Shown: piece by piece, positions 19,404 through 32,564 of the stretch
Numbering within the stretch: position 1 is the first letter of the stretch
Layout of the letters: every line of letters starts with the position of its first letter
Program-made: the position numbers and the translations under genes
NCBI GenBank assembly: GCA_903933385.1
Contig: CAIZJW010000208.1
Coordinates: 1 to 32,676, forward strand
Reading direction: 5' to 3'
DNA from: an uncultured Silvanigrella sp.
Lineage (GTDB): Bacteria > Bdellovibrionota_B > Oligoflexia > Silvanigrellales > Silvanigrellaceae
Length of the DNA stretch: 32,676 nt
Notes under the pieces: model-generated
Seen by the model: only the letters and a program-made list of their open reading frames with translations
Told to the model about the DNA's origin: nothing
Database searches by the model: none

Positions 19404-20060
19404 TTAGACGATTGGCTTTTGATTAGCCTTTTTCCAGTCTTCCATGAAGCTCGTGAGCCCCTTGTCGGTCAGTGGGTGCTGATAAAGCGACATAAGAACC
19501 TTCATTGGGCAGGTTGCTACATCAGAACCGGCCAACGCTGACTGAATCACATGCTGTGGGTGTCGAATACTGGCAGCGAGTATCTGAGTGTCATATCCAT
19601 AGTTATCGTAGATAGCTCTAATTTCGCGAATAAGCTGCATTCCATCCTGGCTCACGTCATCCAAGCGCCCGATGAATGGCGAGATGTAAGTGGCTCCACA
19701 TTTCGCTGCCAGAAGAGCTTGGCCAGCCTGAAAACAAAGAGTGACGTTTGTTTTAATATTGCGAGCGCTTAAAGCTTTGCAGGCCTTCAATCCTTCTGGC
19801 GTGAGCGGCAATTTGATAACAATATTTTCATGAATTTTCGCCAAAACCTCAGCCTCGCTGAGCATTTCAGGGGCTGTTAGGCCAACCACTTCCGCAGATA
19901 TCGGTCCGGGAATCAAACGAACAATTTCATTCAGGAGTGATTTGAAGTCTTGCCCCGACTTGGCAACAAGAGTTGGGTTGGTCGTGACGCCGTCGCAGAT
20001 ACCTAAATCTGCCATTTGGCGAATCTCATTTATATCTGCGCTATCGAGAAAAAATTTCAC
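19404..20060 (-). CDS. tal: transaldolase, small (TalC/fructose-6-phosphate aldolase-like) type
   Basis: 218 aa, the compact transaldolase subfamily. It moves a dihydroxyacetone unit between sugar phosphates in the pentose phosphate pathway; some relatives are fructose-6-phosphate aldolases. The start [28 protein letters not shown], the Schiff-base lysine K83 in [12 protein letters not shown], and [32 protein letters not shown] by parts are all typical. The ATG overlaps the stop of the upstream lipoprotein gene (ATGA at 20057-20060), so the gene is read from the gyrA side. No other pentose phosphate gene is in the window. Confidence 0.95.
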
Positions 20061-21559
20061 TGAAAAAGCCCTCCAGCTTGAATCTTGGATCCATCGAATT
20101 TGAATTGCTGTAATTGATTCGTTCCAAATGAACCTGTGAGAATGGATGAACCATTCACCGAAAATGACGCCAATCCAAGCAGAGGAGATTCTACTTGAGC
20201 TTGTTCAGCTGCCGACTGAGCAGTGACAATTTGAAGTCGACTTTTTTCTGCACCGAGACTGCTACGGCGTTGTTCAACGCGCAGCCATGCGAGCGTGCAG
20301 AGGCCGCTTGATTGAATCAATTGAAATTGAGGAATGAGGGTCCTGATGTCGGTCAATTCAGGCATTTGAGATGCCATCGAAACAGGCTGTGGGATAAGAA
20401 CATTACCCAAAACAGGCTGTCGCTCGCCCTGCTCAAGCCGCGTGCGTAATTGCGCCGCGACAGCGTTGAATCCACCTAATGCGATAACATCTACCGACTG
20501 ACCATTCGTTGCCACAACTGCGGTATTTATCGCGAGTGAGGCCACGGGCGAATTGGGGACACAATACGAACTCGATGAGTCAATTGCATATGCAGATTGA
20601 TAAGAGGTCCGGAAAGAATAGGACGCATTTTCTGAAGAAGATGCATCGGCATTTGGATTGCCCGGCTTACCGTTTTCATTGAAAGCGATGGGCGCATATC
20701 CGAGGGAGCTTTCAACAACCGCGCCTGAAATCAGTCGATTCAAATCAACAACCAGTGTCGATACCGTGCGAAGATCACTCAAAGCGTTTGTCGTGGCTGC
20801 CTTTCCTGAGAGCCAGTCCAGGGCTGTTGGATTCAAACCCAAGTATCCAAGTGTTCCATAGGGAAATGCTGCCAAAATTCCGAGGCTTTCGAAAACCACA
20901 GGCGAGCCCCAAGCGAGAGAGTAGGCACCCAAAATACTGTCGCGCGACGGACTGTAGAAATCGCCTGGAGTGCTGAGAAGCTTACGAAACCCGGTCAGTG
21001 GTGAATATTGATATACGAAAATCTGCGCTTCATAACTTCGGTCGGCAGATGACGCAACAACCGTCCAATCTTGTTGTCCTGCCAAACGAACGACCTGCAG
21101 AGTTCCAATGCGACCCGCTGGCAGTGTGAGACGATCAAACTCCTGTGCCGACTGAGTCGCTGCACCATTTTTGTCGAGAAGATAAACCTGGATCTCGGGA
21201 GTAGACCCGGAAAAACCAGCCATCAAAAATTCACCCGTTTTAGCGACCGCAATCGCTGTGCCTAAACGCGGAGAGTTTTGCGCTGACAGGAGTTGTGGCG
21301 AGGCACCGGCAGAAAGAGAAAATGATTGCAGCGACCCGGTTTCATATTCACCGCCGAGCACCGCATTGAGCACATAAGTGATAGGAAGTGTCGGATGACT
21401 CGCCATTGCGATGGGCGAATCAACCCCGTTTCCAATTGAAGCACGTTGTGCTTTTCCGCAACCAGAAAAAATCTGGACAATAACTGCAAGCACAATGAAA
21501 AAAGCCCAGGATTGACCGGATGCTTGCCCAAGAGAGTTCAACATTCTTGGGTTCTTCAT
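20057..21559 (-). CDS. lipoprotein of unknown function
   Basis: 500 aa from ATG 21559; a GTG directly before it (21562) is equally placed. The N-terminus is a lipoprotein signal with lipobox IFSGC (acylated C34). The rest has many short beta-like segments with repeats of the kind [23 protein letters not shown] and [18 protein letters not shown], which read like the blades of a 7-bladed lactonase/YncE-type propeller. That fold is a guess from pattern, and no catalytic site is evident. It overlaps the gyrA stop at one end (TGATG) and the transaldolase ATG at the other, so the three are translationally linked though functionally unrelated. Confidence 0.7.
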
Positions 21560-24036
21560 CACTCAATCTCCTCGGCTGCTTCTATTTGTGTCACAGGCGT
21601 GTCGTCGAACTCGCTCGGTTTCGAAACAGAAACTACGCGCTCGCCATCAAGAATTCTCATGAGGCAAACACCTTGTGTGAGCCGACCAATCACCTTCACG
21701 CTGGTTGTATGAATACGCAACACACGCCCTGTATTGGTTGTCAGCATGAGGTCTGCCGAGTCCGGAACCGACAACAAAGCAACAACTTTACCATTGCGTT
21801 CTGTCACCCGAATCGCACTGACGCCTTTACCGGCACGACCGGTCAAGCGGTATTCTTCAAGCTCAGAGCGTTTGCCGTATCCAAACTCAGTCACGACCAA
21901 AAGCTTCTCATTCGAGGAAGGATCAACAACTTCTGATGCTACAACTGAATCACCCTCTTCGAGATTGATTCCCGATACACCACGAGCGGTGCGGCCCATA
22001 GAACGAACTTCGTCTTCATTGAAACGAATTGCCCGACCATTAGCACTCGTCAGAATCATCTGATTTTTGCCGTTGGTGATTCTCACAGAAACCAGCGTAT
22101 CACCCTCATCAAGCGTAACAGCGCGCAAACCTGTGGCACGAATATTTGAGAATGCCGACAGTTCGGTTTTCTTTACTGTTCCCTGCGATGTGCACATAAA
22201 CACATGCATATTCTCAGAGAATTCGTTTACAGGGAGCATGGTTGTGATTTGCTCACCCGATTGCAACGTGAGGATTTGAGCAATTGATTTCCCGCGACCA
22301 GTCGCAGGAGCTTCAGGCAGTTCATACACCTTAAAGCAATAAACCTTGCCAAAGTTAGAGAACATCAACACATGGTCGTGTGTGTGCGCACGGAAGGTGA
22401 CCTTTACAAAGTCCGAGTCCTTCAAGGCTGCTCCGGTTTTGCCTTTACCAGCCCGATGTTGGGAACGGAACTCGTCCTGCAGCACGCGCTTGATGTATCC
22501 ACCTTGCGAGAAAGTAACAAAGACATCAGCTGGAGGAACAAGGGATTCAAGATCAACATCACCAGCATCAGTTGTGATTTCTGTCCGGCGATTGTCGCCG
22601 TGTGACTCACGCAGCGCGACAAACTCTTCTCGCGCTATAGCCGCAACGCGTGCAGGTTTTGCAAGAATGTCTTTTAGGTCAGAAATGGTCAAAAGGATCT
22701 CTGCATGTTCGGCAACAATTTTATCGCGCTCAAGTCCGGTGATACGAGAAAGTCGCATTTCCAGAATCGCCGTTGCCTGCCGCTCGCTGAGAGCAAAGCG
22801 AGCAACAAGTTTCTCACGAGCTTCATCAGGGCTTGGTGCCTTGCGAATGAGATCGATTGTTTCATCGAGATTGTCGACAGCAATTTTCAAGCCCTCCAAA
22901 ATATGGAGGCGCTCTTCAGCCTTGCGCAAACGGAAACTCGTGCGGCGCGTTATCACTTCATAGCGGTGGTCCACAAAGTGCGAAAGCGCTTCTTTTAGAT
23001 TTACAAGCTTCGGGATGCCGCGAACAATGCAGACCATGTTCACGCCGAATGAATCTTGCAGACGGGTGCGCTTGTAGAGATGATTCAGCAGAATCTCTCC
23101 GTTTTCGCCCTTCTTAACTTCAATGACAATTCGAATTCCCTCTTTATTGGATTCATCGCGAATGTCGGAAATTCCCGTGATCTCTTCTTCCTTTACCAGG
23201 TCGGCAATACGTTCAATTAAGGTTGCCTTATTTACCTGATAAGGAAGCTCGGTGATGATGATTTGCTCGCGACCACCTTTTGTCTGCTCGACTGATGCGC
23301 GTCCGCGCACAACAATCGAACCACGACCGGTCCGGTAAGCATCGTGAATTCCCTTGAGCCCACAGATCATGCCTGAGGTCGGAAAATCAGGGCCCTTCAC
23401 AAATCCCATTAGCTGTTCAATCGACGCATTTTCGTTGTCTATGACGTGAATCAATGCGTCGATTACTTCGGTCAGATTGTGAGGAGGAATGTTGGTCGCC
23501 ATACCAACGGCAATTCCTGACTGTCCATTCACTAGGAGTTGCGGAAATACAGTTGGCAGCACTCTTGGTTCGCGTTCGCTGTTGTCGTAGTTCGGCCCAA
23601 AATCGACCGTATCTTCGTCAAGTGATTGCATCAGAGATTCAGAAATTTTTGCCAGGCGAACTTCTGTGTAACGCATCGCCGCTGGGCTGTCGCCATCAAT
23701 ACTTCCGAAGTTTCCTTGGCCATCAATGAGTGGATATCTCATTGAGAACTCTTGAGCCATACGAACAAGTGCGTCATAAATTGCTGAGTCGCCATGCGGA
23801 TGGTATTTACCCATCACATCACCGACAATACGCGCCGATTTTTTATATGGCTTGTTATAAACATTATTGTGCTCGTACATCGCGTAAAGAACACGACGAT
23901 GAACCGGCTTCATACCGTCGCGAACATCTGGAAGAGCACGACTCACGATTACGCTCATCGCATAATCGAGATAAGCATTCTTCATCTCTTCGTTAATATT
24001 AATTCCTACGATGCCTTGGCTTTGAATCTGCGACAT
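21559..24036 (-). CDS. gyrA: DNA gyrase subunit A
   Basis: 825 aa. GyrA cuts and rejoins the DNA strand in the A2B2 gyrase that adds negative supercoils. The catalytic Tyr is Y123 in [10 protein letters not shown]. The quinolone-resistance region reads [17 protein letters not shown], with Ser84 and Asp88 (E. coli S83 and D87), the wild-type, quinolone-sensitive pair. The C-terminal domain has the propeller repeats and a variant GyrA box, QHRAGKG (QRRGGKG in E. coli), which argues for GyrA over ParC. The acidic C-terminal tail is short. It follows gyrB by 24 nt and points away from the origin. Confidence 0.97.
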
Positions 24037-24060: not shown

Positions 24061-26617
<2,557 letters not shown>

Positions 26618-27805
26618 TCAAAATCGAGTCGGAACGAGCAAATAAAAGACGTCAAGTCCCTTTTCAGCTTCACCCGTTATCATGACAGGACGATTCACGT
26701 TCTCCCATGAGAATTTCAGACTCGCGCCCGACAATACATTGAGAATTCCCGTCAAGAGAGTTCCATTGTAATTAACGACAAAGGGTTGTTCTACTGGCGC
26801 GGCCAGCTCAACAACTTCTTCACCCTCCTTAAGACCGGGGGTAAAGCTCTGGACGTCGAGAACGGGACCATCAAATCCCAATTTAATGATGCGATTTTTG
26901 TCTGCAAACAGAAGCACGCGTTTGACGCTTTCAAGCAGCGGCGACAAGCCTATGTTGACAGTGAAATTGACCTTCTGAGGAATCGCTGATGTGTAAGGAG
27001 GATATTTTCCTGGAATACACTTTGATACCATGACGTAATTTTCTGTTTCAACAGCAAAGAACAAGCGTTCTCCGTGCCAGCGCAGTCGATAGTCCATTTC
27101 CGGATTTGCGGCGCAAAGTCGGCGAAGTTCATCGAGAGCTTTTTTAGGAACAAGAACTGCGCTGTCTTCAACGCGCTCTGATCTCAATCCATCTTTAAGT
27201 TGAGCTTTGGCGAGTCGGTAGGCGTCTGATGCAACAGCTTGGAGATTCAATCCCTGCGATGTGTCCGCCCAGATCAATGCACCGTTTGCGTAAAAACGCG
27301 TGTCGTCAGTTGAGACGAAATCTCGAAAGGCATTAACCCAGCGCTCAAGGTAATCGCCCTTAACAACGATTGAAGTACCTTCCTGAGGAACGACGACATC
27401 GGTTTGTGTTTGGTCTTGAACAAGCTGCAGCTTTGCCGAGGAGCGACCGCACTTGACAACCAGCCGTTGAGGGAGTTCTGCAATGAGTGTGATTTTTTCG
27501 GGCGGGAGTTGGCGAACATATTCGCTCAGTTGTTTCCCGGAAACCTTCAGAACACCCTGTCCTTCATACTCAGCAGCAAAACTGTAGCGGATGGATAGAT
27601 TGTGACTGAGCGCACTGACTACGACTTGTCCCTCACCGCCGAATTGAAATTGCACCCAGCCCACATCGCCATCGGCTTGGGCAGCTGTCACGGCTGCGAG
27701 AGCACCTGCGAGTTTATCGCGATCGATGACTGCGCGAATCGATGATCCTTTTTCACCGGAAACTTCATTTCCGTGATTAAAAGTGCTCATGCGTTTGTAG
27801 AGCAT
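26618..27805 (-). CDS. dnaN: DNA polymerase III beta subunit (sliding clamp)
   Basis: 395 aa. The clamp encircles DNA and tethers polymerase III and repair proteins. The three similar domains are visible in order, with FYANGALIWADTSQGLNLQAVASDAYRLA in the middle domain and the C-terminal FYLLVPTRF matching the family's VYLVMPMRL ending. ATG 27805 has AGAGGAG 7 nt upstream; M6 is a less likely start. The N-terminal ~18 residues before SIRAVIDRDKLAGAL are extra. It is the first gene left of the origin, transcribed away from it. Confidence 0.95.
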   Translation of the reverse strand: MLYKRMSTFNHGNEVSGEKGSSIRAVIDRDKLAGALAAVTAAQADGDVGWVQFQFGGEGQVVVSALSHNLSIRYSFAAEYEGQGVLKVSGKQLSEYVRQLPPEKITLIAELPQRLVVKCGRSSAKLQLVQDQTQTDVVVPQEGTSIVVKGDYLERWVNAFRDFVSTDDTRFYANGALIWADTSQGLNLQAVASDAYRLAKAQLKDGLRSERVEDSAVLVPKKALDELRRLCAANPEMDYRLRWHGERLFFAVETENYVMVSKCIPGKYPPYTSAIPQKVNFTVNIGLSPLLESVKRVLLFADKNRIIKLGFDGPVLDVQSFTPGLKEGEEVVELAAPVEQPFVVNYNGTLLTGILNVLSGASLKFSWENVNRPVMITGEAEKGLDVFYLLVPTRF

Positions 27806-28296
27806 GGCTCAACTCCTCTGGTGGCTTTTCTTTTGCTGCACAGGTCTACATGAGGAAAGACGTGGGTACAAGCATCCCAGAAGATTCATCCACAGCCACG
27901 TCTTCTCCTTTATTTAAGATAGATATTAGTGTGTTTGAGTAGTTGAAGTAGTAGGTGGCAGCATTTTTTGTGGAAAACCCTACTTTTTTGATGTAACCAT
28001 TTGTTATTAATGTATTTTTATTCACTCATAGCTGTTGATAAGTTGTGGATGAGATGGTGGATAGGTTGTTCATGAATTGAAAAGTCTGTTGATAACAATT
28101 TGCTTCAAATAAAGGCAGCGAGACTTATCCACGATTCATCCACAGCTCTTCCACACCTTGTCCACAGGAGCTCCTCTGTGCTGAAGATTGTCCGTTTGGG
28201 GTGGCTAAGTTCGACTCTTGTCCACACTCGTTGTTGACATCCTGTGGATAACCTGTGGATACATCGCCGCGATTGTGTTTCACAGGGAGTTAGTTC
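27806..28296. other. oriC: probable chromosomal origin of replication (oriC)
   Basis: This 491-bp gene-free stretch is packed with DnaA-box-like 9-mers (consensus TTATNCACA or complement). One exact box is at 28243-28251. Copies with one mismatch are at 27886-27894, 27969-27977, 28033-28041, 28044-28052, 28087-28095, 28125-28133, 28136-28144, 28158-28166, 28218-28226 and 28254-28262; a weaker one is at 28147-28155. The left half, about 27996-28030, is AT-rich and could be the unwinding element. A run of triplets TAG TTG AAG TAG TAG at 27940-27954 followed by a GC-rich spacer resembles a DnaA-trio. Genes dnaN, gyrB and gyrA lie immediately to the left. Confidence 0.85.
28234..28263 (+). promoter_or_regulatory. 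probable sua5 promoter overlapping two DnaA boxes
   Basis: A perfect -35 TTGACA is at 28234-28239 and a moderate -10 GATACA at 28258-28263, 18 bp apart, about 33 nt before the GTG start of sua5. The exact DnaA box at 28243-28251 fills the spacer and a one-mismatch box at 28254-28262 covers the -10. Bound DnaA would be expected to block RNA polymerase here. Confidence 0.5.
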
Positions 28297-29472
28297 GTGA
28301 CGCAACTGCTAAGAGAAATCGACGATATCACGCTGGAGCGGCTCGCTCGATGCCTACAGTCTGGAGAGTTGGTCTCTTTTCCAACCGAAACTGTTTATGG
28401 CTTGGGGGCGCATGCAGGTTTAGCTGCAGCTGTCGGAAGGATTTTTGAGGTTAAAGGCCGGCCAGCTCAAGATCCATTGATTGTCCACTGCTCATCGTTT
28501 GAGCAGACAAAAAGATACATTTCGTCGAACGCCTCAGTTTGGCAGCGTTTGGTCCATGAGGCGTTAGGTCGCACTTTTTGGCCAGGACCTTTGACTTTGA
28601 TTTTGCCGTGTCATCAGGAAAAAATTGTTTCTGCAGTGACAGCAGGAACTGGGTGGGTTGGGTTGCGCTGTCCCAATCATGCAATCGCACTTCGGTTTCT
28701 GGAGATGTGTGATTGCCCCGTTGCGGCTCCAAGCGCCAATCTCTTTGGTCATGTGAGTCCAACAACAGCTCAACACGTCTATGACGATTTTCCGCTTGTG
28801 GATAACTTGTGGATAATTGATGGTGGCGCCTGTGGATTCGGAATTGAGTCAACGGTTCTTCGTGTTAATGCAGATAATACTCTCGATATTCTGCGTCGAG
28901 GCGGTGTTGGTCGTGATGCTATTGTTAAGTGCTTGATAGACTTTCAACTCCTTCATAATGAAATTGAAGCCAAAGAATGTGTGCGGGTTGTTGAACGATA
29001 CGTTTCTCCGAAAGCTCAACTGACTCCGATGTTGTCTCCTGGTCAGTTGCTTGTGCACTACGCGCCGCGATTATTCACTCAGATGATTGAATGGTCGAGT
29101 GATCTAGAGGGTGTTGGGGATTTTAGCCTCGTCTCCTCAGAGCAGATGAGGAAAACAATATTAATTGATTTTTTTGGGCAATTTTCAGTGCTGTCTGGGC
29201 TCGTCGGCGTATATCGCGATTTGTCTCAGTCGGGATCGTCTGAAGAGGCCGTTCACGACCTATTTTCTGCGCTACGATGGGCAGAAAGTCATGGTTTGGG
29301 AGATGATTTACATTGGCAAATTTGGATTTTTAATCCAAAAAATATTGAACTAATGAAATCTAATGAGATCTTTCTTGCAATGTCTGACCGAGTTTATCGA
29401 GCTTCTTCAGGCAGAAGTATGGCGCTAAAATTCAAACCAGATTTTGGTCAAGTTTTCTCTTCAGCTCGTTGA
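28297..29472 (+). CDS. threonylcarbamoyl-AMP synthase, long Sua5 type
   Basis: 391 aa. It makes L-threonylcarbamoyladenylate from threonine, bicarbonate and ATP, the first step of the t6A37 modification of ANN-decoding tRNAs. The YrdC domain (~1-210) has LVSFPTETVYGLGA, KGRPAQDPLIVH, APSANLFGHVSPTTA and GFGIESTVL; the C-terminal Sua5 domain begins near LSPGQLLVHYAPR. GTG start with GGAG 7 nt upstream. It sits between the origin and dnaA, an uncommon position. Its coding sequence contains two exact DnaA boxes at 28797-28816. The 3' end overlaps the convergent dnaA gene by 41 nt. Confidence 0.95.
   Translation: MTQLLREIDDITLERLARCLQSGELVSFPTETVYGLGAHAGLAAAVGRIFEVKGRPAQDPLIVHCSSFEQTKRYISSNASVWQRLVHEALGRTFWPGPLTLILPCHQEKIVSAVTAGTGWVGLRCPNHAIALRFLEMCDCPVAAPSANLFGHVSPTTAQHVYDDFPLVDNLWIIDGGACGFGIESTVLRVNADNTLDILRRGGVGRDAIVKCLIDFQLLHNEIEAKECVRVVERYVSPKAQLTPMLSPGQLLVHYAPRLFTQMIEWSSDLEGVGDFSLVSSEQMRKTILIDFFGQFSVLSGLVGVYRDLSQSGSSEEAVHDLFSALRWAESHGLGDDLHWQIWIFNPKNIELMKSNEIFLAMSDRVYRASSGRSMALKFKPDFGQVFSSAR
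28797..28816 (+). promoter_or_regulatory. two exact DnaA boxes inside the sua5 coding sequence
   Basis: TGTGGATAA occurs at 28797-28805 and again at 28808-28816, both in the same orientation and 11 bp apart, about one helical turn. A degenerate third copy, TGTGGATTC, is at 28831-28839. The 11-bp repeat matches the spacing of the pair at 28243 and 28254 in the origin region. The codons used (VDNLWIIDG) are ordinary, so the match could partly be codon-driven. Confidence 0.6.
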
Positions 29473-31036
29473 CTATTGCTCTTGTTGAAGCGTCCTTTTC
29501 GATAAGGTCTTTGACCTTTTCAACGGCATGCATGACGGTTGTGTGGTTTTTCCGCCCAAATGCTTCGGCAATTTCTGTTGTCGCCGACCCTAATAACTCA
29601 CGACTTAAATACATTGCGATATGTCGAGGGACCACAAGCCTCTGTGAGCGATCTGAAGACATTAATTCCGTTAATTTGATGCCAAAATGAGACGCGACTG
29701 CCTTTTGAATTGTGTTGAGGTCGAGCGATTGAGTCGGAATCCGAATCATGCGTCGTAAGTGCGAATTGGTCGATTCAATAGACGGTGGTGCGCCGGTCAT
29801 TGATTGCGTCATGGCAAGATTATTAAGTATGCCCTGTATTTCACGTACGTTTGATTTCACGTGCGTTGCAATGTGCATCACGACATCGCGAGTTAATTTC
29901 AAATTGAGAGCTCTTGCTTTTGATTCAATGATTGCCACTCGGTCTTCAAAGCCAGGCGGCTCAATGTCGGCAATAAGGCCCTGAAGAAATCGGCTTTTTA
30001 AGCGCTCTTCAATATTTGGAATGTCTTTAGGATATTTATCGCTTGTGATTACAATCTGTTTTCGTTTTTGAAAAAGATCGTTAAAGGTGTGAAAAAATTC
30101 GAGTTGGGTTGAATCCTTGCTTTCAAGGAACTGAATATCATCAACTAACAACACATCTACGTGGTTGTACTTATTTCTAAATGCTTCCTGTTTGTAGAAA
30201 CGGATCGCTTGAATCAATTCGTTCATATAATCCACACTGGTGACATATTTGATGTTCCAGTTCGGATGTTGCTTGAGAATTTCGTTGCCCACCGAATGCA
30301 AAAGGTGGGTTTTTCCTAGGCCCGTTGCACCGTAGATAAACACAGGATTTGTTAAATTACCTGGATTTTTGGCGATTGATTCGCAAGCGGAATATGCAAT
30401 AAGGTTGCTTTGACCGCGCACAAATGTTGAAAAGTTGAGTTCGGAATTGAGAGAACGTGTGGACTCCTGGGCTGGAGTTGCTTTCGCTTCGAAATCATCA
30501 GCGAGAGAAATGGGTGTGACGTTCATTTGGGTTGACATTTGATTAATGTTTTTTGAAGCCTGAAGGGTTGAGATTTTAGGCTTCAAATTATCTTTGGGTG
30601 CAGTCATTGAGCTCGTGCCCAATTGTTCGAGAGTTGCATCGTTGCGAGAGGTTTTTACACTTTTTTCTGTTTTTCTTGGCGAAGCTTTCTTTTGACTGTC
30701 CTCGGGGGTGTCAAACAATGAGGGAGTTTCGCTCGTTTTCGATGTTTTGCTACGCTTGGGTTGTGGTGTGATTGAGTCCGAGTCGGAGCGAATATAAAAT
30801 TCGATATTCGGCCCCCAAACGTCCTTTGCGACCTCAATAATATCGTTCATTTTTGCGCTAATAATAAGATTGCCATGAAACTGACTTTTGCAGTCAGCTA
30901 TCACAGTTTGGCCGTCAAATTTGACGGGGACAACTTGGTTGGCAATTGAGTGAGCAACACTGTCTCCGAGTCCGAGCGACTTGAGTCTTAATTTGAGTTT
31001 TTCAAAGAAGACTTCCGATTTTTCGATTGTCGCCAT
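29432..31036 (-). CDS. dnaA: chromosomal replication initiator protein DnaA
   Basis: 534 aa from ATG 31036. DnaA binds DnaA boxes, opens the origin and loads the helicase. Domain I (~1-85) is recognisable but divergent; a long Ser/Thr/Lys-rich linker spans ~85-200; the AAA+ domain has Walker A GATGLGKT (236-243) and Walker B DVLLVDDIQF (294 onward); domain IV ends in the DNA-binding signature EIAEAFGRKNHTTVMHAVEKV. The frame is open to TTG 31123 and has another ATG at 31078; 31036 is chosen because domain I then begins at the usual distance, although no strong Shine-Dalgarno is seen at any of them. It points toward the origin and is convergent with sua5, overlapping it by 41 nt. Confidence 0.95.
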   Translation of the reverse strand: MATIEKSEVFFEKLKLRLKSLGLGDSVAHSIANQVVPVKFDGQTVIADCKSQFHGNLIISAKMNDIIEVAKDVWGPNIEFYIRSDSDSITPQPKRSKTSKTSETPSLFDTPEDSQKKASPRKTEKSVKTSRNDATLEQLGTSSMTAPKDNLKPKISTLQASKNINQMSTQMNVTPISLADDFEAKATPAQESTRSLNSELNFSTFVRGQSNLIAYSACESIAKNPGNLTNPVFIYGATGLGKTHLLHSVGNEILKQHPNWNIKYVTSVDYMNELIQAIRFYKQEAFRNKYNHVDVLLVDDIQFLESKDSTQLEFFHTFNDLFQKRKQIVITSDKYPKDIPNIEERLKSRFLQGLIADIEPPGFEDRVAIIESKARALNLKLTRDVVMHIATHVKSNVREIQGILNNLAMTQSMTGAPPSIESTNSHLRRMIRIPTQSLDLNTIQKAVASHFGIKLTELMSSDRSQRLVVPRHIAMYLSRELLGSATTEIAEAFGRKNHTTVMHAVEKVKDLIEKDASTRAIVNELKRKLDQNLV

Positions 31037-31123
31037 ACTGTTTACTCGTGCTCGACTTTCTGTTTCTGACTTTGGCATTGAGGGCCGGATTGTGCAGAGG
31101 GTCTGGTTGGAGGTCAAGTCCAA

Positions 31124-31402
31124 ATGGGAAAACTTCTTATCTGGTTTGGTATTTTGTACGGAAATTTGGTTGCTCTTGTTGGTTTAGCAGTTATTACGAT
31201 CTGGTGGACGAAGGAGTCTTCTGGACGGCAATTTTGCCAAGCGTTTGGGCTGGGTTTGACGGGTTGTCGGAGTCTGCTGTTGATTTTGGATTTTGTCGTT
31301 ATGGGCACGGCCACTTTTTTGAGCTTTCGGAGAATGTCGACGGCTCGTAAAAACCTGGACAATCATTCTTCGACCCGCTCTGGAGATGGAACCGACCGAT
31401 GA
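31124..31402 (+). CDS. small membrane protein upstream of atpB
   Basis: 92 aa with two probable membrane helices (~5-27 and ~47-68) and a polar, charged C-terminus. ATG 31124 has GGAGGT 9 nt upstream. Its stop overlaps the ATG of the next gene (ATGA at 31399-31402), so the pair is coupled. Short two-helix proteins of AtpI/AtpZ type stand in this position ahead of atpB in many ATP synthase operons and are thought to assist c-ring assembly or Mg2+ uptake; the position suggests a similar part, but I see no clear sequence signature. Confidence 0.6.
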   Translation: MGKLLIWFGILYGNLVALVGLAVITIWWTKESSGRQFCQAFGLGLTGCRSLLLILDFVVMGTATFLSFRRMSTARKNLDNHSSTRSGDGTDR

Positions 31403-31659
31403 GTTTGTGGTTTTTTCTTTTGGCCGCCGTGAGTTCTGGGTTATTTGTAGGTTGGGGTCTGTTTATGCAGGTTGCTGCCATCGTCCGACAAAAGCGGTCG
31501 TTTGTCGGATTTGTTGCAAAATTTCTTGGGCTTGGACCCTTTTTTTGGGCTCTCTATGCAGGCCGCGAAAATTTAACCCTGCTCATTATAACTTTTTTCA
31601 TTTCTCTCGCTGGCTTCCTGGTTGTGCTCACCCTTGCACGAGACAGGCTTCTGCGTTAG
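31399..31659 (+). CDS. small two-helix membrane protein, possibly AtpI/AtpR-like
   Basis: 86 aa, with helices at ~3-27 and ~58-80 and a basic patch (VRQKRSF) between them. The pattern, an N-terminal Gly-containing helix, a basic loop and a final LAGFLVVLTLARDR, is reminiscent of the AtpI and N-ATPase AtpR groups, which sit ahead of atpB. This is a resemblance by eye, not a proven family match. It starts inside the stop of the preceding gene by 4 nt, and atpB follows after 53 nt. Confidence 0.6.
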   Translation: MSLWFFLLAAVSSGLFVGWGLFMQVAAIVRQKRSFVGFVAKFLGLGPFFWALYAGRENLTLLIITFFISLAGFLVVLTLARDRLLR

Positions 31660-31712: not shown

Positions 31713-32564
31713 ATGAGTCGCTTGGCCTGCGCGTGTCTTAATCTTTCCATTGTGTTTTTACTTGTTGCTGTGAGTTCTGCAGCCCTTGCCGCTGGCGGAA
31801 GCCTCACAATTGTTTCTTGGTATGCAGTGGTTGCCGAATACCTTCGCGAAACCTTTGCCATCGGCCTCGACCTAGCGATTGTGAGTGAAGCTGTTTCCTC
31901 TGCCGCTGCATTTTTGGTGGTGACAGCTGTTGGATTACTCGCTGGTTTTTATCGATTGAAGCCCGAGTCAATGTCCGATGATGAAATCCTTCCACCGAAG
32001 GCATTTGGATTTAAGGCTTTTGTTGAACTCTGTTGGGGTGTAATCAGCAGCACTCTTGAGAAGATTGTCGGCGAGAAGGCTTGGACGCACTACGCATCTC
32101 TTCTTGGTGGAACGTTCTTTTTTATTATCTGCGCAAATCTTTCTGGTCTGGTCCCCGGTTTTCCGCCGGCAACTGAATATATAAATCAGAACGCTTCGAT
32201 GGCTATTATCATCTTTTTGGCATTCAACTATGTTGGTTTGAAACATGGTGGCTTGAATTATATCAAACACCTTTGCGGCCCAGTGCTGTTTCTTGCCCCA
32301 ATTATGTTCGTCATTGAGTTGATTGCACTCCTCGCTCGCCCTGTTTCATTGAGTTTGCGTCTTTATGGAAACGTCTCTGGGGACCACATGGTTTTCAACG
32401 TGTTTTCCACACTCATGCGCGATTTTAATGTTCCCTTTTTACCGGTCCCTGGCGCACTATTGACCTTTGGTCTTTTGGTCGCGTGCCTTCAGGCCTTTAT
32501 TTTTATGACCTTGAGTTCGGTTTACGTGCGTCTCTCTCTTGATACGGCCCATCACGATCACTGA
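31713..32564 (+). CDS. atpB: F-type ATP synthase subunit a
   Basis: 283 aa. Subunit a forms the proton half-channels against the c-ring in the F0 sector. The essential arginine is R216 in SLSLRLYGN, followed by V-S-G-D-H, and Q260 lies in the last helix (LQAFIFMTLSSVYV). Several membrane helices are clear. The first ~27 residues look like a cleavable signal peptide (LSIVFLLVAVSSAALA-A), which E. coli subunit a does not have. ATG 31713 has AAGGG 7 nt upstream; a much longer frame from 31386 would overlap the preceding gene and is rejected. The rest of the operon lies beyond the window. Confidence 0.94.
   Translation: MSRLACACLNLSIVFLLVAVSSAALAAGGSLTIVSWYAVVAEYLRETFAIGLDLAIVSEAVSSAAAFLVVTAVGLLAGFYRLKPESMSDDEILPPKAFGFKAFVELCWGVISSTLEKIVGEKAWTHYASLLGGTFFFIICANLSGLVPGFPPATEYINQNASMAIIIFLAFNYVGLKHGGLNYIKHLCGPVLFLAPIMFVIELIALLARPVSLSLRLYGNVSGDHMVFNVFSTLMRDFNVPFLPVPGALLTFGLLVACLQAFIFMTLSSVYVRLSLDTAHHDH

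Follow-up and report, generated by a model that had tools for sequence, protein, structure and literature searches.

The sequence of the window, the whole 32,676-nt stretch of DNA analysed here, indicates that the gap between dnaN and sua5 is a real and ordinary DnaA-dependent chromosome origin. Both signs of such an oriC were found: a DnaA-box cluster above chance, and a GC-skew switch that is seen in the window, in its congener G001 and in the family members G010 and G011. Across the genomes compared, the only unusual feature of the locus appears to be a family-level insertion, in the Silvanigrellaceae, of sua5 between dnaA and oriC. We put the probability of this whole explanation, including the order of the gene block and the sua5 insertion, at about 0.92. 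Its main outcome is a corrected starting point: a dnaA gene that faces oriC would be normal in this class, and no oddity.

The window is one entire contig (G000:C208). The draft genome to which it belongs has 326 contigs and a single full-length copy of dnaA. Read along the minus strand, the genes follow the order dnaA, sua5 (reversed), oriC, dnaN, gyrB and gyrA (Table 1). ORFs and Pfam matches agree with the coordinates and gene calls of an earlier note on this DNA, which had dnaN, gyrB and gyrA running leftward, sua5 rightward and dnaA back, and the 41-nt overlap that it gave for sua5 and dnaA is exact. dnaA and dnaN share one strand and lie collinearly on either side of oriC, the arrangement of an origin block. 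Because sua5 intervenes between dnaA and dnaN, as it does in all readable genomes of the family, the locus was classed as a variant of the dnaA-oriC-dnaN block. Directly after gyrA lies a 501-aa ORF (20057-21562, minus strand) that gave no Pfam match; it is conserved in G002 (43%), and more weakly so in G010 (23%).

Table 1. Features of the origin locus, with positions in the window.
Feature	Position	Strand	Evidence and remarks
gyrA	21559-24036	-	follows gyrB
gyrB	24061-26493	-	Pfam DNA_gyraseB 211 bits, DNA_topoisoIV 559 bits
dnaN	26618-27805	-	ORF and Pfam, three beta-clamp domains
oriC (dnaN-sua5 intergenic, 491 nt)	27806-28296		11 DnaA boxes, at most 1 mismatch
AT-rich putative unwinding stretch beside DnaA-trios	27906-27939	+	sequence; predicted
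DnaA-trio-like array TAG-TTG-AAG-TAG-TAG	27940-27954	+	sequence; GC-rich spacer 27955-27962 next
DnaA box beside trios	27969-27977	-	TTTTCCACA; perfect TTATCCACA in genus g5
Minus-strand DnaA-box array, ~11-bp spacing	28033-28064	-	boxes 28033, 28044, degenerate 28056
Single DnaA box	28087		between the two arrays
Opposed DnaA-box array, four boxes, 11-bp spacing	28125-28166	+	boxes 28125, 28136, 28147, 28158
DnaA-box pair, 11 bp apart	28243-28262	-	boxes 28243/28254, just upstream of sua5
sua5 (threonylcarbamoyl-AMP synthase)	28297-29472	+	Pfam Sua5_yciO_yrdC 168 bits, Sua5_C 33 bits
sua5/dnaA tail-to-tail overlap	29432-29472		41 nt, exact
dnaA	29432-31036	-	Pfam Bac_DnaA 206 bits, Bac_DnaA_C 96 bits; reads toward oriC
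atpB	31713-32564	+	Pfam ATP-synt_A 146 bits; divergent from dnaA

DnaA boxes with at most one mismatch number 18 in the 32.7-kb window, compared with 5.4 ± 2.3 in shuffled sequences, and none of 100 shuffles contained 18 or more. At the dnaN side of oriC, the trio-like array, the spacer GTGGCAGC and the adjacent box (27940-27977) are in the correct orientation for a basal unwinding system. This trio-spacer-box arrangement is kept in 10 of the 11 family members, the pattern search giving no match in G003. The array itself is kept as TAGAAGTAGTAGTAGG or TAGTAGTAGTAGG in relatives of genus g5, and is recognisable in the class families f3, f5, f9 and f10. The minus-strand array comprises four boxes in most g5 genomes, the sua5-proximal box pair is present in 10/11 family members, and the family members share the same oriC layout with nearly perfect boxes. 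The two opposed arrays (28033-28166), with up to four boxes each at ~11-bp spacing, have equivalents in G006-G012, and similar opposed arrays are also found in class families f5 and f10. Finally, the sua5-proximal part of oriC in genus g5 (G006-G012) contains, between box pairs, a near-invariant block, CTTGAAAATCATTCTAAAATATGGAAAAA, which is absent from the window's genus and is possibly a candidate binding site of another origin protein.

These elements suggest how the origin might work. The conserved block atpB(divergent)-dnaA-oriC-dnaN-gyrB-gyrA would house the origin, and, starting from box 27969, DnaA would most likely load onto the trios beside it (27940-27954), then open the AT-rich stretch next to dnaN with the help of the two opposed box arrays. 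As far as sequence can tell, the parts and their order fit the basal unwinding system (PMC6669920, PMC10721633). A bipartite origin, with sua5 instead of dnaA as the spacer and the boxes inside sua5 as the second subregion, seems to us highly improbable. The sua5 coding sequence does carry two perfect boxes, 28797 and 28808, 11 bp apart (28797-28816), and one or two are found within sua5 in both congeners, but none was found there in the other eight family members. Moreover, all other elements sit in one intergenic gap, and the origin therefore looks continuous. A second box cluster upstream of dnaA was not found in the 11 family genomes: the 600 nt upstream of the gene (31037-31636 in the window) contain no box with at most one mismatch in 10 of them, window included, the sole exception being one box in G006.

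We then consider the insertion that distinguishes the family. The order dnaA-sua5-dnaN, with sua5 convergent to dnaA, was found in 11 family genomes (G000-G003 and G006-G012), and a twelfth, G004, has the same gene pairs split over two contigs, consistent with this order; G005 and G013, in which dnaA or dnaN was not readable, stand outside the count. Of the 11 genomes, G003 alone has the tails of sua5 and dnaA apart, by 51 nt; in the other ten they share 4-41 nt. Elsewhere in the class, sua5 is located at other places or was undetected with the query used. G014 alone represents another family of the same order; its contig ends 786 nt past dnaA, and that stretch is without sua5 and without boxes. 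We propose that, in the family ancestor, sua5 entered the interval from the dnaA 3' end to oriC, on the strand opposite to dnaA, an insertion that would have set dnaA ~1.1 kb away from the origin and left its strand unchanged. The insertion may serve as a small natural comparison between a dnaA gene touching oriC and one located 1.1 kb away, raising the question of whether this distance matters.

A rightward fork that leaves an origin at 27.8-28.3 kb meets dnaA head-on. The earlier note had described this orientation, and GC skew, together with a codon signature of the lagging strand in the dnaA gene of G001, bears it out. A strand classifier using the third-position skews of 178 G001 ORFs, T/A skew included (93% accurate), assigned dnaA to the lagging strand (P leading 0.00) and atpB to the leading strand (0.99), while dnaN and gyrB scored weakly as leading (P 0.16 and 0.22), probably due to codon bias. 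The G+C third-position skew alone was dropped as a test of the dnaA strand: the same codon bias occurs in dnaN and gyrB, which makes this skew uninformative.

The earlier note went on to suggest that collisions couple initiator expression to replication, a proposal for which we found no supporting evidence: in a promoter and terminator scan of the region, matches were no more numerous than in shuffles. The head-on direction of dnaA, the convergent sua5/dnaA overlap (4-41 nt) kept in 10/11 genomes, and the DnaA-box pair just upstream of sua5 would all suit a coupling of DnaA expression to initiation through collisions of the fork with RNA polymerase transcribing dnaA, perhaps with a contribution from convergent transcription of sua5. 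So would the near absence of boxes upstream of dnaA, because of which promoter autoregulation of the usual kind by DnaA is not evident. Nevertheless, such coupling is doubtful in the extreme, since a head-on dnaA is widespread and older than sua5, and hence needs no special role. Relatives without sua5 would also replicate dnaA head-on, with no sign that orientation serves as a control device. It is equally a long shot that sua5, with a promoter beside oriC and the conserved DnaA-box pair, runs into dnaA and works on it as an antisense or interference switch that responds to DnaA; combined with head-on replication, this switch could time dnaA expression to initiation and replace the missing boxes upstream of dnaA.

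The orientation of dnaA was further placed in context by gene order in 33 relatives that belong to other families of the class and have dnaA and dnaN on one contig. dnaN lies directly after dnaA, on the same strand and within a few hundred bases, in 33/33 of these genomes, and 29 of the 33 have a divergent atpB upstream of dnaA, as in the window. A search for yidC (PF02096) as an old upstream neighbour did not find it near dnaA in f1 or in the compared class genomes. DnaA boxes are present in the dnaA-dnaN gap of the 20 relatives examined, and trios are recognisable on the dnaN side of the gap in several class families. Experimentally, DnaA of Bdellovibrio bacteriovorus bound an oriC located in the dnaA-dnaN gap (PMC5124646). 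From the order in all 33 relatives and the Bdellovibrio oriC, it follows that dnaA reading toward oriC would be ancestral. On this comparison, we consider dnaA facing oriC to be the normal state in the class, dnaA itself having neither moved nor flipped.

This gene-order comparison, which the earlier note had called for, changes its picture of the locus. It is misleading to contrast the order with the usual dnaA-dnaN block, as dnaA, dnaN, gyrB and gyrA form a collinear series on the same strand, and the statement that dnaA normally reads away from or along the fork does not hold in the class and in Bdellovibrio, where oriC as a rule lies between dnaA and dnaN (PMC5124646). Of the two rearrangements it had offered, the insertion stands, as that of sua5 and in this family only, and the inversion falls, with the strand of dnaA relative to dnaN kept class-wide and atpB mostly kept too. 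Strand and neighbours across the class rule out an inverted dnaA. That dnaA was inverted relative to dnaN, in a derived order newly facing the origin, is accordingly a reading with hardly any credit left: the reading direction of dnaA is indeed toward the box cluster, but the four genes keep the standard order, and neither the dnaA/dnaN orientation of the 33 relatives nor the divergent atpB in 29 leaves room for a flip.

GC skew places the origin at the same locus. The window's own skew, which covers 32.7 kb only of a draft genome, has its cumulative minimum at 26836, and plus-strand skew turns from negative to positive beside the gap. Over the whole 272-kb contig of the congener G001, skew changes from about -0.08 to +0.07: it stays near -0.08 as far as dnaA and is +0.04 to +0.08 past gyrA, and its cumulative minimum is within ~5 kb of oriC. 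G011 and G010, complete single-contig chromosomes of the family in which skew was taken from 20-kb samples, display a clear negative-to-positive switch at the dnaA/dnaN locus, and the local cumulative minimum falls within the dnaN-sua5 gap, at 1660467 in G011 and at about record base 435 in G010. The GC-skew check suggested in the earlier note has thereby been run, with the minimum at the locus, inside oriC in G010 and G011, and none to the right of dnaA; box cluster and skew together support the origin that it had located at 27.8-28.3 kb. A true origin elsewhere or to the right of dnaA, the boxes here being merely regulatory, could appeal to the window minimum at 26836, ~1 kb left of the box cluster, but is exceedingly improbable given the switch here in G001, G010 and G011, the minimum inside oriC in both complete chromosomes, and the absence of boxes upstream of dnaA in 10/11 genomes.

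Taken as an ordinary origin with an inserted sua5, the locus most resembles that of Bdellovibrio bacteriovorus, where oriC also follows the 3' end of dnaA and precedes dnaN, dnaA reads toward oriC, and DnaA-trios with a GC-rich spacer stand beside a box (PMC5124646). By contrast, the Bdellovibrio gap is 232 bp long and without sua5, with rnpA-rpmH upstream and recF downstream, whereas the window has sua5 inserted, atpB upstream and gyrB directly after dnaN. The unwinding region of Bacillus subtilis is situated between dnaA and dnaN, so that dnaA faces it too. Its basal unwinding system likewise combines DnaA-boxes and trios in the unwinding region (PMC6669920, PMC10721633). Unlike the window, B. 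subtilis has a bipartite origin, whose second box region lies upstream of dnaA; the window has almost no boxes there, and its dnaA is set apart from oriC by sua5. Escherichia coli oriC shares with the window a box beside the unwinding element, followed by two box arrays in opposite orientation, but is not next to dnaA. Its arrays are of low affinity, whereas many array boxes in the window are close to consensus.
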